From NCBI GenBank assembly GCA_002256995.1, contig NCGX01000022.1:1-64000 (forward strand): a stretch of DNA of 64,000 nt, given 5' to 3'. Positions 42,537 through 49,649 of this stretch are shown piece by piece. The notes below the pieces were generated by a model. That model was given only the letters and a program-made list of their open reading frames with translations, searched no databases and was not told where the DNA came from. Source of the stretch: Hydrogenophilales bacterium 16-64-40 (GTDB lineage Bacteria; Pseudomonadota; Gammaproteobacteria; Burkholderiales; Thiobacillaceae). A program made the translations under genes and the position numbers. The stretch's first letter is position 1, and every line of letters begins with the position of its first letter.

Positions 42537-42940
42537 ACCGGTTGGTCCAGGCGTGATCCTGGCTTGGCAAAATCAGCGGGGTGACACGCTGACAGGACGT
42601 GCCGGTCAGCGCCGCCGCGGCCGCCCCTTCCCGATTGTGAAACCATGCTTACAGGGTTTTCTCGCAGCTGAGACATTTTCGTTTTCAGCCGGATATTTTG
42701 GATAGCTGATTGATTTGTAATGGTTATTTACTGATTTTCGGTTTTTTATCACGCGTGCTGTCAAAAAAATGGAACAGCTTGCCAGCGAAAATCAGGATGT
42801 TTACCCTGTCTTGTTGCTTAAAACCTCTTTTGTTTCAATTGGATAGATCTTCTGGCACACGCCTTGCAATTGGGGCAGTGAAGTCTGTTTCTTGTGGCTT
42901 CGTCTTTTTGAACTCACTCAACTTAAGTGGAGGTTTCATC
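42537..42940 (+). promoter_or_regulatory. Leader region of the Gly-rich protein locus
   Basis: 404 bp with no gene, clearly more AT-rich than its surroundings from about 42610. It holds short inverted repeats after the kinase stop (CAGCG 42574-42578 with CGCTG 42587-42591), a GCTGA/TCAGC pair around 42669-42690 that might be an activator site, and the -24/-12 promoter at 42852. The ribosome site GGAGG precedes the ATG at 42941. Confidence 0.6.
42852..42868 (+). promoter_or_regulatory. Sigma-54 (-24/-12) promoter
   Basis: CTGGCACACGCCTTGCA matches the RpoN consensus at the GG (42854-42855) and GC (42866-42867) dinucleotides with exact 12-nt spacing, plus TGGCAC and TTGCA. Transcription would start near 42879, about 62 nt before the Gly-rich protein gene. 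A sigma-54 activator gene lies in the same locus (48210-49649). Confidence 0.8.
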
Positions 42941-44812
42941 ATGAACAAAACACTGCTCTCAACAGCCATCGCAATGGCACTCGGGGTCTCAGCCCAAGCT
43001 TGGGCCAACCCGACCACCAATAACACTGCCGACACGAATGATTCCGTCACGCAGACCGCTACCGCAAACTCCGACCAGAGTGCGCAAACGGGTGCCGCCG
43101 CGAACGAGTATTCATCTGCGTCCCTGGACAGCAGTGTCGACAACAGCAACAACAGCGATAACAGCGACAACAGCGACAACAGCGACAACAGCGACAACAG
43201 CGACAACAGTGATAACAGCGACAACAGCACCTTTGCCCAGGACAACAGTGACAACAGCGATAACAGTGACAACAGCGATAACAGCACCAACACTGCCCAA
43301 AGCGGCATGGGCGCCATGGCCAGCGATGCTTCAACGGCCACCCAGTACACCAACTCAAATAACCCCACCATTACGGCAACCACCAACCTAAACGGCTATG
43401 TCAGCGGCAACGCCGTGTCCGGGATTGGCAACACCGCCTACGGCGGCGGGACAGCCGGAGATGGCGGCATGGGCGGTAACAGCGGCTATGCCAATCAGAA
43501 CGCAAACAGCGCCGCCACCGGTGCCAATGGCGGTCACGGCGGCAGCGGTTTCGCCCAAGCCACAGGCGGTGACACCTTTGCAGGTGACGCCGGCGATGGC
43601 GGCATGGGCGGCAGCGGGGGCGACGCCTGGGGCGGCTATGGCGGCAACGGCACCGGCGGCGCAGGCGGCAGTGGCGGCAACAGCGGCGCTGCCACGGGCG
43701 GCTCCGGCGGCTCCGGCGGTGACGGCGGCATGGGCTCCGGTGGCTCCGGTGGCTCCGGCGGCAGTTCCGGTGATGTGGCGGGTGGCTCCGGCTATGGCGG
43801 TGACGGCTCCGGCGGCTCCGGCGGCTCCGGCGGCAGTTCCGGCACCGCATCGGGCGGCTCCGGCTCCGGCGGCTCGGGCGGCGACGGCGGCAGCAACGGC
43901 GATGCCATTGGCGGCCTCGGCACCGGCGGCTTCGGCTCCGGCGGCTCCGGCGGCTCCGGCGATGCTGGCGGCTCCGGCGATGGTGGCGACAGCGGCAGCA
44001 CAAGTGCCGGCGGGCCGTCCAGCGCCGACGGCGGCTGGGCCAGCGCCAACGACAATGGCAATGATGGCACCGCCACTGGCGGCGCCGGTGGCGGCTCCAC
44101 GGGCGGCAGCACCGCCAGCACCGACACGGGCGGCGCCGGCGTTGGCGGGGCAGGCGGGTCCGGCGCCGCTGGCGCGACCGGCACCGGCGCCACCGGCACC
44201 GGTGCGGCGGGCACCAATACCGCAGGCAGCGGTGCAACTGGCGCGACCGGCACCGGCGCCACCGGCACCAGCACGGCAGGTAGTGGCGCGACGGGCGCGA
44301 CCGGCACCGGCGCCACCGGCACCGGCGCCACCGGCACCAGTCTGGGCGGCGCGGGCGCAGTGGGCGCCACCGGCACCGGCGGCGCAGGCGGCACGGGTGC
44401 GGTCGGCGCGACCGGCACCAGCACCGGCGGCGCCGGCGCAGTGGGTGCGACCGGTACCGGCGGCACCGGCGCAGGCGGCGTGGGCGGCGCAGGTGCGACC
44501 GGCGGCGCCGGCGGCACCGGCGGCACCAGCGGCGACGGCGGTGCGGCTACTGCCAGCGGCGACGGTGGCGATGGCGGGCTGGGCGGCAGCGCTGACAGCA
44601 GCGCCATGGCCTCTGCCACGACGGGTAATGGCGGCGTGGGCGGCAACGGCGGTCACGCGTACGGCGGCAACGCCGGCACCTTCGATGCCTCCAACTCCAT
44701 CGATGGCAGCCTGTCGAATGGCGCGGGGATCATTACCGTCAGCCAGAACAGCGGGATGAATTCCCTGACCCAGCAGGGCATCACCGTGCAGGCCAACCTG
44801 ACGGTTCAGTAA
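42941..44812 (+). CDS. Secreted Gly/Ser/Asn/Thr-rich repeat protein, putative amyloid or surface-fibre subunit
   Basis: A 623-residue secreted protein with signal peptide MNKTLLSTAIAMALGVSAQA. Residues ~65-115 contain two (Asn-Ser-Asp)n blocks. Residues ~160-570 are a low-complexity Gly-rich region: first GGSGG-type with scattered aromatic residues, then pentapeptide-like GATGT repeats. The C-terminus TVSQNSGMNSLTQQGITVQA is normal sequence and shares a motif with two neighbouring secreted proteins. No Cys is seen, unlike FapB/FapC, which have a C-terminal CxxC. By context (sigma-54 promoter, C39 peptidase, coiled-coil outer-membrane barrel) it is the likely main fibre subunit; this is inference. 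Confidence 0.85.
   Translation: MNKTLLSTAIAMALGVSAQAWANPTTNNTADTNDSVTQTATANSDQSAQTGAAANEYSSASLDSSVDNSNNSDNSDNSDNSDNSDNSDNSDNSDNSTFAQDNSDNSDNSDNSDNSTNTAQSGMGAMASDASTATQYTNSNNPTITATTNLNGYVSGNAVSGIGNTAYGGGTAGDGGMGGNSGYANQNANSAATGANGGHGGSGFAQATGGDTFAGDAGDGGMGGSGGDAWGGYGGNGTGGAGGSGGNSGAATGGSGGSGGDGGMGSGGSGGSGGSSGDVAGGSGYGGDGSGGSGGSGGSSGTASGGSGSGGSGGDGGSNGDAIGGLGTGGFGSGGSGGSGDAGGSGDGGDSGSTSAGGPSSADGGWASANDNGNDGTATGGAGGGSTGGSTASTDTGGAGVGGAGGSGAAGATGTGATGTGAAGTNTAGSGATGATGTGATGTSTAGSGATGATGTGATGTGATGTSLGGAGAVGATGTGGAGGTGAVGATGTSTGGAGAVGATGTGGTGAGGVGGAGATGGAGGTGGTSGDGGAATASGDGGDGGLGGSADSSAMASATTGNGGVGGNGGHAYGGNAGTFDASNSIDGSLSNGAGIITVSQNSGMNSLTQQGITVQANLTVQ
43139..43228 (+). repeat. Tandem 9-bp repeat, ten units, coding (Asn-Ser-Asp)n
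   Basis: Ten near-identical 9-bp units (GACAACAGC with GAT/AGT variants and one AAC unit) in frame within the Gly-rich protein gene. Such arrays change length by slippage without shifting frame. Confidence 0.95.
43241..43285 (+). repeat. Second tandem 9-bp repeat array, five units
   Basis: Five further units of the same 9-bp repeat, separated from the first array by 12 bp encoding TFAQ. Confidence 0.95.
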
Positions 44813-48056: not shown

Positions 48057-48209
48057 GCCCCCCTATCGAATGACGCGACGCCTGGCGCCGGCCGCTCTTG
48101 TGGCCGACATCAACGAAGCGTGTGATCAATAAAAACAACGCGTGTACTCATTCCAATCTGTTTAGTTGATTTTTTGAAACTTGCACTTCGATCGGCGAAC
48201 GCGGCGCAT

Positions 48210-49649
48210 TCAGTGTGCGTCGGGAAGGCTGGTGGGCTGGGTCGGGTGGGTTGGTTTATCCACAGCGGCCAGCGTTGCGGGTGAAGGCGACCGTTCCGGG
48301 GTGGCCTTGCCATTGAGGCGGCCGGATAGCGCGTAGCGTTCCAGCAGGCGATACAAGGTGGCCCGCGAGACGCCAAGCTCCCGCGCCGCTTCGGAGACGT
48401 TGTGCTGGCAGCGGCGCAATGCCGCGCGGATGGCCTCGCTCTCGGCCCTGGCGCGCGCGTCATCGAGGGTCGGGCGACCCGCGTCCGCTGCACGCCGCTC
48501 CATCCCCAGATCCTCAGGGGTCAGATAGGGATGTTCGGCCATGATCACGCCCTGACGGATGCGGTTGATCAATTCCCGCACATTGCCGGGCCAGGCATAC
48601 TGGTTCATCGCACGCAGCGCTTGCCGGCTGAAGCCTTTGACCTTGCCGCCGTTATCCCCGGCAAACTGGCCCAGCAGGGCCTGCGCCAGGAGTTCCACAT
48701 CCCCCTGGCGCTCGCGCAGGGGCGGCGCCTGGAGGTTGATGACGTTGAGGCGGTAGTACAGGTCTTCCCTGAAATGGCCTTTGGCCACCGCTTCCCGAAG
48801 CTTGATATGGGTGGCGGCGATCACCCGGATATTCAGATGGATGGGCTGGCTCGACCCCAGCCGCTCGATAACCTTATCCTGCAGCACGCGCAACAGGTTG
48901 GCCTGCAGGTCGAGCGGCAGGTCGGCAATTTCGTCGAGAAACAGGGTGCCGCCCTGGGCGGCCTCCATGCGCCCGATCTTGCGCTGGTACGCACCGGTGA
49001 ACGCCCCTTTTTCGTGGCCGAACAACTCGCTCTGAATGAGGTGGGTGGGCAGGGCGCCGCAGTTGACCGCCACAAAGGCATGCCTGCTGCGGGCGGACAT
49101 GTTGTGGATGGCGTGGGCGGCCAGTTCCTTGCCGGTGCCGCTTTCGCCGCCGATCAGCACCGGCGCGTCGACTTTGCTGGCCTTGCGCAGCGCCTGGGAG
49201 AAAGCCTGCATCGCCGGGCTGCTGCCTACAATGCCGTGGTGTTCCAGTGAGTCGGGCTGGGCCGGCGGCTGCCTGAGCAGCTGACCCTTGCCCCAGGCGT
49301 GACCCAGGGAAATCGCGAGTCGTTCCTGGTCGACCGGCAGGGTATGGAAATCATAGACGCCGGCCAGAAAATTGCGGTGCTGCGGCGTGGGGTTCCAAAA
49401 CGAATGATCCATGAGCGCAATCCACTGCAGGGATTGCTGTCGTCCCACCAGATCGAACAGCTTGAAGTTGCCGACGCGCTGCAATTGCAGCAGCCCTGCA
49501 TGAAAGTCCTGCTGTTCAATGAGGTCGGCCAGTTCATCCGCATTGGCCGCCCGGTGCAGTTTCCAGCCCCTTGCCTGCAAATAGCCAAGAAGCTTGGTGT
49601 GCAGCGCATCATCCAGCAGCGCCACGACGTCTCGATCTACCGAAGTCAT
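48210..49649 (-). CDS. Sigma-54-dependent transcriptional activator (VpsR-like)
   Basis: A 479-residue bacterial enhancer-binding protein. The N-terminal ~130 residues form a receiver-like domain without the phospho-acceptor Asp. The AAA+ domain has Walker A GGESGTGKE, the sigma-54-contacting EKGAFTGAYQ and Walker B LFLDEIADLP; a Fis-type HTH (SEAARELGVSRATLYRLLERY) closes the core. The C-terminal tail is Pro/Thr-rich. It is the obvious activator for the -24/-12 promoter at 42852. GAGGAAA precedes the ATG at 49649. Confidence 0.92.
   Translation of the reverse strand: MTSVDRDVVALLDDALHTKLLGYLQARGWKLHRAANADELADLIEQQDFHAGLLQLQRVGNFKLFDLVGRQQSLQWIALMDHSFWNPTPQHRNFLAGVYDFHTLPVDQERLAISLGHAWGKGQLLRQPPAQPDSLEHHGIVGSSPAMQAFSQALRKASKVDAPVLIGGESGTGKELAAHAIHNMSARSRHAFVAVNCGALPTHLIQSELFGHEKGAFTGAYQRKIGRMEAAQGGTLFLDEIADLPLDLQANLLRVLQDKVIERLGSSQPIHLNIRVIAATHIKLREAVAKGHFREDLYYRLNVINLQAPPLRERQGDVELLAQALLGQFAGDNGGKVKGFSRQALRAMNQYAWPGNVRELINRIRQGVIMAEHPYLTPEDLGMERRAADAGRPTLDDARARAESEAIRAALRRCQHNVSEAARELGVSRATLYRLLERYALSGRLNGKATPERSPSPATLAAVDKPTHPTQPTSLPDAH

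Follow-up and report, generated by a model that had tools for sequence, protein, structure and literature searches.

A Fap-like locus with a glycine-rich major protein in Thiobacillus, a probable sister branch of the Fap secretion system

The locus

The stretch of DNA analysed here (the window) comprises 64,000 nucleotides of contig C34 in the 3.10-Mb genome of a Thiobacillus, Hydrogenophilales bacterium 16-64-40. Between positions 42853 and 49649 it holds a locus that recalls the Fap functional-amyloid system of Pseudomonas (fapABCDEF; NCBIfam NF058557-NF058560, NF058616). Behind a sigma-54 promoter-like site lie genes for a major secreted protein (MAJ), a small secreted protein (SM1), a C39 cysteine peptidase and a second small secreted protein (SM2), followed on the opposite strand by genes for an outer-membrane pore and a sigma-54 activator (Table 1). 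All of these elements had been picked out in a first-pass annotation made from the letters alone, and we confirm each of them at its place; signal peptides and ribosome sites were assessed by eye. The interpretation given there, a Fap-like system doing the same job with a different main subunit, holds in part, and its author was largely right. We think that the locus probably represents a diverged sister lineage of the Fap machinery for secretion and assembly, in which processing, export and fibre formation would follow the steps proposed below.

Table 1. Features of the locus, with positions in the window
Feature	Position	Strand	Basis
Sigma-54 (-24/-12) promoter-like site TGGCACACGCCTTGCA	42853-42868	+	Sole exact TGGCACN5TTGCW match of the window
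Major secreted protein MAJ, 623 residues	42941-44812	+	Sec-type signal, Ser/Asn/Asp-rich (DNS)n region, Gly-rich body, C-terminal unit
Conserved C-terminal unit of MAJ, GxIxVxQNxGxNxxxQQxxxVQANL	44672-44809	+	Profile A6
Intercistronic hairpin at the MAJ/SM1 junction, 10-bp stem	44827-44850	+	Folding; 63 of 78 loci
SM1, small secreted protein, 117 residues, C-terminal end TVIQNSGNNVLIQNATVLNLQ	44872-45225	+	Present in 79 of 80 relatives
Double-glycine-type site of SM1, degenerate, DEQLDQLRGR	45001-45030	+	L...RG[GRK] pattern
FapD-like periplasmic C39 cysteine peptidase, 228 residues	45240-45926	+	NCBIfam C39_FapD; Pfam Peptidase_C39
SM2, small secreted protein, 238 residues, N terminus FapE-like	45947-46663	+	Present in 80 of 80 relatives
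Double-glycine site of SM2, SNQELAALRGG|F, predicted cut after GG	46067-46102	+	RGG[FYM] pattern
FapF-like outer-membrane pore, 438 residues; coiled coil ~36-93, barrel 122-438	46740-48056	-	FapF structures; NCBIfam
Sigma-54 activator with N-terminal VpsR domain, probable locus regulator	48210-49649	-	Pfam

A peptidase and a pore related to FapD and FapF

Judged by profile and structure searches, the peptidase and the pore are homologues of FapD and FapF that lie far below the cut-offs of these families. The peptidase matches Pfam Peptidase_C39 (E=1.2e-20), and its best NCBIfam model is C39_FapD (E=1.2e-41), at 142.4 bits against an equivalog cut-off of 330. Its catalytic C58, H142 and D158 are intact, as had been noted, and are invariant, together with the oxyanion residue Q52, in all 13 sequences aligned, that of the window among them. 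The best NCBIfam model of the pore is FapF (E=6.2e-48; 163.6 bits, equivalog cut-off 700); FapF itself consists of a coiled coil, a plug and a 12-stranded barrel. The first-pass annotation had allowed that the barrel might belong to an unrelated porin family; in fact, residues 122-438 match the FapF crystal structures 5o67, 5o65 and 5o68 (E=2.5e-33 to 3.7e-32), and the coiled coil ahead of them comes from weak Pfam hits. The wider barrel superfamily also includes the COG4313/Phenol_MetA_deg channels (Pfam E=3.9e-6), to which FapF is related (PMC6173800; this and the other papers cited are used from excerpts), but the present pore, like FapF, differs from those channels in having a coiled coil and a C39 peptidase linked to it. 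The Fil system of Acinetobacter (FilB NF050078, FilC NF050079) draws on the same wider families (C39 E=1.3e-33, barrel E=4.3e-17), but at 116.6 of 475 bits for FilB and 62.5 of 630 for FilC the matches are weaker than those to FapD and FapF; no other Fil-named NCBIfam model matched a window protein. In an Acinetobacter plasmid region (L222), no barrel is annotated beside the C39 gene.

Cut-offs alone cannot decide membership in Fap, because a Fap locus that we used as a yardstick (L202) also falls below them (FapD 280.7 of 330 bits, FapF 456.5 of 700) and because the FapF cut-off is passed by none of 369 sampled genomes of the class, 69 of which have a match. A tree of 62 C39 peptidases includes 20 of 22 Fap-type peptidases and 35 new loci, out of 41 tried that comprised the window and alternate members of the 80 loci described below. 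A long branch of 1.31 (support 100/99) sets the 20 Fap rows, together with one odd locus (L059), apart from the new rows, whose own union in a single clade is not strongly supported (83/91). Could the locus nonetheless belong to the Fap family itself, as an operon whose subunits have simply evolved fast? Its homologous peptidase and pore, the FapE-like SM2 and the likeness in sigma-54 control, FapE site and hairpin would all suit such a member, and L202 shows that a true Fap locus can score below both cut-offs. We nevertheless think it improbable, given how low the peptidase and pore scores are, the length of the branch, and the lack of any match to the FapB, FapC or FapE models in the window, whereas L202 carries FapC above its cut-off as well as FapB and FapE. 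In addition, five genomes (G068, G169, G270, G300 and G303) hold one pore match of each of two identity classes.

These classes emerged from a search of 300 genomes of the order, 41 of which have a pore match; short partial hits aside, the matches group at 42-57% and 24-31% identity. In G303 the new system coexists with a pore and a peptidase of Fap type (L075 and L083, at 2369695 and 2379632), the two pores standing about 9 kb apart. Pseudoxanthomonas daejeonensis seemingly has both systems as well, the new one at L131 and, at L210, a Fap-type pore with a second, weaker pore match.

A module conserved across genomes

A scan of genomes for relatives of the peptidase confirmed at least 586, and the best 80 were kept for counting loci; four of these 80 are the same records as loci of the profile-training set (L048-L079). 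They come from Lysobacter, Dyella, Cupriavidus, Ralstonia, Paraburkholderia, Massilia, Geotalea, Nitrospira and others, and among these best 80 of at least 586 matches the nearest relative by peptidase is Thiobacillus denitrificans strain RG, 96% identical. The set of MAJ, SM1, C39 peptidase, SM2 and FapF-type pore recurs in many genomes, mostly proteobacterial. All five open reading frames (ORFs) are present in 72 of the 80 loci, and in 47 of 47 where at least 8 kb is available on both sides; these counts by separate ORFs agree with an earlier count by profile hits, in which small-protein hits might overlap. In 77 loci a MAJ homologue precedes the peptidase and is read in the same direction; SM2 stands directly 3' of the peptidase in all 80. 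SM1 is found in 79 and, when spacing is judged strictly, adjoins the 5' side of the peptidase gene in 67. The pore gene is found in 75 loci, and for 35 of the 80 the stretch fetched also contains an activator gene. The combination, which the first-pass annotation could match to no locus known to it, is on these counts not singular. Our survey of the literature, by titles and abstract openings, recognised no earlier description of the module, which does not show that none is in print.

The first-pass annotation had also taken the opposite strand of pore and regulator as a distinguishing mark, which it is not. The pore is reversed in 26 of the 75 loci that have one, and its orientation in the window is a local trait. 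In fact, fapF is itself separated in 4 of 16 Fap genera according to the excerpt of PMC3792158, and the RpoN-dependent regulator gene brfA, adjacent to the P. fluorescens fapA-E operon with its -24/-12 promoter, is likewise reversed (PMC9207406, excerpt).

Within the genus, an orthologous C39 peptidase occurs in 9 of 36 genomes. The MAJ tail profile, searched in 40 genus genomes that include those 36, gives a strong match in 10: the nine with the orthologous peptidase and one outside the 36. It is weak in G004 (E=0.02) and finds no match in G020, whose peptidase is distant. That genome carries L059 (8131-11567), a third type of FapD/FapF pair, with a C39 peptidase and a barrel; its two small Sec-type proteins, with LSDAQMDGVTAGG and LTDAQMDGVTAGG, have a canonical-looking double-glycine site.

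Several loci vary the theme. In two relatives of the genus, L052 (3612-8031) and L054 (981-5458; the same record as L092), two tandem Gly-rich MAJ genes, both with the conserved tail, stand 5' of SM1. Massilia has tandem copies of the module (MAJ, peptidase and pore; L132 and L134) with an activator gene in between. On a plasmid of the alphaproteobacterium Polymorphobacter (L090, 5224-9595), a similar gene order includes a pore in the same direction; its genes are annotated as a C39 family peptidase and hypothetical proteins, and in the tree the peptidase falls close to the Fap side, a placement that is weakly supported.

Double-glycine sites and likely substrates

What would such a peptidase cut? 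In 79 of 80 loci, SM2 has RGG[FYM] with Leu, Met or Ile at the fourth position ahead of the Arg, versus 1 of 569 flanking ORFs. This count was made with no selection for RGG[FYM], unlike the 40 SM2 rows of alignment A3, most of which were picked with the motif required, so that invariance there is partly by choice; the SM2 profile was also trained on RGG-bearing proteins and favours them. The looser pattern L...RG[GRK] is present in 80/80 SM2, 60/79 SM1, 1/77 MAJ and 18/75 barrels, and in 9.5% of the flanking ORFs taken at whole length (n=569). SM1 reaches 71/79 when Ser or Thr may replace the Arg and Val the Leu. The sites stand after the signal peptide in SM2 and mostly in SM1, and a low-confidence AlphaFold2 (AF2) model of SM1 places a short helix before its site.

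Fap loci show a counterpart. Of 23 Fap-type loci taken, all but L214 have a C39 peptidase, and in 22 of those 22 the protein directly 3' of the FapD-like peptidase bears a site that typically reads [S/T]DxxLxxMRG[RK][YF], with RG[RK][YF] in 21 and TGKY in one; these proteins were picked by the motif adjoining the peptidase. NCBIfam names the protein FapE in L202 and L203, the two Fap-type loci whose subunits were submitted to it. SM2 aligns with FapE (hhalign P 77.8, E=1.9e-5) over 28 columns that cover the motif and the FG[IV]E stretch behind it. Double-glycine leaders are cut after the second motif residue, where GG or GA is usual (PMC10233263, excerpt). In excerpts of PMC5557850, the FapD substitution C38A abolishes secretion of FapC, the target of FapD is called unclear, and FapE is the sole Fap protein with complete N-terminal processing, over about 70 residues. 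We predict from these alignments that FapD-type peptidases cut minor subunits at a double-glycine-type site, the targets being SM1 and SM2 in this branch and FapE in the Fap system. The sites in SM2 and SM1 and their FapE counterpart, from which substrates of FapD-type peptidases can be predicted, are new here.

A similar motif stands in the pore. Residues 139-146, where the barrel domain starts, read VLSPRGRF and fit a loose double-glycine pattern; 59 of 75 barrels fit it, and it may represent a structural feature of the barrel family. The excerpt of PMC5557850 speculates that FapD could cut FapF at the linker-barrel junction.

Double-glycine sites and a C39 fold are also what bacteriocin leaders and their exporters have (PMC10233263, excerpt), and the peptidase and small proteins might be a bacteriocin-type maturation set with the Gly-rich protein as an unrelated neighbour. 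C39 ABC exporters share the fold and the type of site with our locus, but the peptidase here is free and probably periplasmic, and its predicted substrates are Sec-type minor subunits. We rejected the bacteriocin set, which seems to us very improbable, because the locus has no ABC exporter and because SM1 and MAJ have a common C-terminal tail. No peptidase-ABC transporter is among the locus genes, and the genome gives no second C39 match; peptidase and substrates carry Sec-type signals by eye, and the steady company of a same-strand MAJ gene in 77/80 loci does not suit a chance neighbour.

The major protein and its C-terminal unit

MAJ had been described as Gly-rich, secreted and free of CxxC. 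With 31.8% Gly and no Cys over its length, and with a 400-residue body that is 44% Gly, and with (DNS)n and GATGT-type repeats, it is indeed Gly-rich and different from the Fap subunits. Lack of CxxC does not separate it from Fap, because only 4 of 15 FapC-like ORFs examined have CxxC, and we rejected it as a distinguishing mark. Among 77 MAJ homologues, 70 have at least 20% Gly and 67 lack Cys beyond residue 60. In high-GC DNA of low complexity, long frames open up on either strand, and one may ask if the Gly-rich frame is a gene at all. That it should be an artefact is hardly credible: we rejected this on its conserved signal, tail and promoter, and its good ribosome site (by eye) and its homologues in 77/80 loci also tell against it.

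The tail is the constant part. While Gly ranges from 6 to 40% across the homologues, the tail is kept; the unit occurs once in 64 of the 77, twice in 10, and in 3 it was not detected by the pattern used. Mean pairwise identity among 33 MAJ proteins is 0.58 in the last 45 residues versus 0.42 in a body stretch, where Gly composition inflates the value. In its own genome, the tail profile finds MAJ (E=1.9e-22) and, weakly, SM1 (E=0.005), with no further tail-bearing substrate up to E=10. By hhalign, the MAJ tail is homologous to the SM1 tail (P 96.2, E=2.6e-9) and SM1 to SM2 (P 96.7, E=3.3e-10).

The relation of these units to the amyloid repeats of Fap is fainter. The pooled units of MAJ and SM1 match the Fap repeats at P 70.9 (E=3.8e-5), and the C-terminal unit is, on this comparison, weakly Fap-repeat-like. 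SM1 by itself scores P 39.8 with FapB repeats, 2.3 with FapC repeats, 28.5 with pooled Fap repeats and 14.8 with FapE; SM2 scores P 0.3 with FapB repeats. In the SM1 family, 2 of 50 members match the NCBIfam FapC model (best E=2e-4) and 1 of 50 FapB (E=3.9e-4); the window's SM1 matches no family in Pfam or NCBIfam, and the secreted proteins of the window match none of the FapA, FapB, FapC and FapE models (FapA and FapB up to E=1).

Fap-like machinery could be serving a different product. The fibre, coat or adhesin made here may be non-amyloid, with the C-terminal unit as an export or anchoring tag, and we treat this as a possibility to be taken seriously, though less likely than not. It is favoured by the 44%-Gly body with its repeats, by the single unit in 64/77 homologues, by the wide range of Gly behind a lasting tail, and by a low-confidence MAJ model with few strands. 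The weak relation of the pooled units to Fap amyloid repeats and the two SM1 proteins that match the FapC model point the other way.

Promoter, activator and hairpin

The promoter-like site first noted upstream of MAJ is exact and lies 88 nt before the ATG at 42941. Allowing up to two mismatches to TGGCACN5TTGCW gives 39 sites in the window, and shuffles give a mean of 40.3; because shuffles yield as many, the weaker sites are attributable to chance. Among relatives, the 300 nt 5' of the MAJ gene contain a sigma-54-like site that retains GG and GC in 52 of 67 loci, most often between -75 and -105 (at most two mismatches, 52/67 versus 2.6% in shuffles; at most one, 27/67 versus 0.3%), and on the reverse strand in 2 of 67. 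Start codons were guessed in this count, and 14 of 81 loci were dropped where upstream DNA was short or missing; the window is among the 67 and is scored there as a miss, a start further upstream having been chosen. The genome has a sigma-54 gene, and the predicted activator combines Sigma54_activat (E=2.4e-70), HTH_8 (E=1.1e-11) and VpsR (E=9.7e-12) domains. We take the VpsR-type domain to suggest a link with cyclic di-GMP.

The intergenic stretch between MAJ and SM1 folds at -31.2 kcal/mol. By dinucleotide shuffles (z<-2), a hairpin follows the MAJ gene in 63 of 78 loci, as compared with 10/80 after SM1, 5/81 after the peptidase and 24/76 after the pore. In Fap-type loci, 13 of 15 FapC-like ORFs are followed by one as well (simple shuffles). 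Such a hairpin would hold the major subunit in excess.

A variant of the Fap kind

We place the locus as a variant of the Fap kind because its pore, its peptidase, its control and probably its processing are Fap-like, yet its subunits do not qualify as those of Fap. The likeness includes a C39 peptidase with a FapF-type pore, a minor protein directly 3' of the peptidase with a [S/T]DxxLxxxRG motif, a sigma-54 promoter with an adjacent activator, a role played in P. fluorescens by BrfA (PMC9207406, excerpt), and a hairpin after the major subunit gene. Unlike Fap, whose FapC has three repeats, the present system has a Gly-rich MAJ with one C-terminal unit, no FapA, FapB or FapC recognisable by model search, an SM1 between the MAJ gene and the peptidase, and a canonical GG at the predicted SM2 cleavage site where FapE has RG[RK]. 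FapA, however, is missing from some Fap genera too (PMC3792158, excerpt).

How might this sister branch of Fap operate? Sigma-54 and the adjacent VpsR-domain activator would drive synthesis of MAJ and the two minor proteins, with the hairpin keeping MAJ in excess over the latter. Sec would send MAJ, SM1 and SM2 to the periplasm, where the FapD-like C39 peptidase would remove an N-terminal propeptide from SM2, and usually from SM1, at the double-glycine-type site. The subunits would then pass the outer membrane via the FapF-like pore, and their C-terminal units would link them into fibres on the cell surface, which the variable Gly-rich body would coat. We can also envision, tentatively and with more doubt than confidence, a third bacterial way of surface-fibre export beside curli and Fap. 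It would combine a constant 45-residue C-terminal tag, common to major and minor subunits, for export through a FapF-type pore and for polymerisation, a freely variable Gly-rich body that the tag brings to the surface, and a cleavage of the two minor subunits by the periplasmic C39 peptidase at a double-glycine site that starts secretion, a cleavage that would fall at RG[RK] of FapE in Fap.

A number of observations weigh against the sister-branch reading. The MAJ tail scores just P 10 with FapB repeats and 0.2 with FapC repeats, and the Fap subunit models match 0 of 16 MAJ and 0 of 40 SM2 members. With one unit per MAJ, as opposed to three in FapC, there may not be enough to build an amyloid core. 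Because the MAJ tail compared directly with SM2 gives P 0.5, the link between these two runs through SM1 only. Structure prediction of the subunits, a check suggested at the outset, gave no confident fold: the mean predicted local distance difference test (pLDDT) score is 37.9 for MAJ and 60.5 for SM1, and the longest strands of the MAJ model, at 595-604 and 609-618, lie in the tail at a pLDDT of about 50-64. As for processing, the strict motif is missing in 19 of 79 SM1 proteins, the window's own SM1 has RGR, and Fap sites have Arg or Lys after RG where C39 sites usually have Gly or Ala. In PMC5557850 (excerpt), the first ~70 residues of FapE yielded no peptides, a stretch longer than the predicted propeptide, and FapF is considered as another possible target of FapD. 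Finally, of the 47 loci flanked by 8 kb or more on either side, only 20 have an activator gene nearby.

Neighbouring sequences

Beyond the locus, GC drops to 48% at 52286-54288, where a HEPN_RiboL-PSP and a GmrSD_N (DUF262-type) protein form a defence-like pair; PADLOC gave no match for the HEPN_RiboL-PSP protein, the one of the pair submitted. A scan of 40000-52000 with Rfam found no family at gathering score.

Significance

That FapD and FapF belong to larger families, with co-located homologues in five additional phyla, is known (PMC3792158 and PMC6173800, excerpts). What appears to be new, by the titles and abstract openings surveyed, is a module with a Gly-rich MAJ, SM1 and SM2, along with predicted substrates of FapD-type peptidases. 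The site is near-canonical in SM2 and mostly in SM1, and alignment transfers the prediction to one position of FapE, where a single mutation could test it. In this family, relatives of FapD and FapF accompany a major protein quite different from those of Fap, which bears on the FapD-FapF pairs of the five other phyla (PMC6173800, excerpt). A variable Gly-rich body on a constant tag may also be of interest to material scientists.

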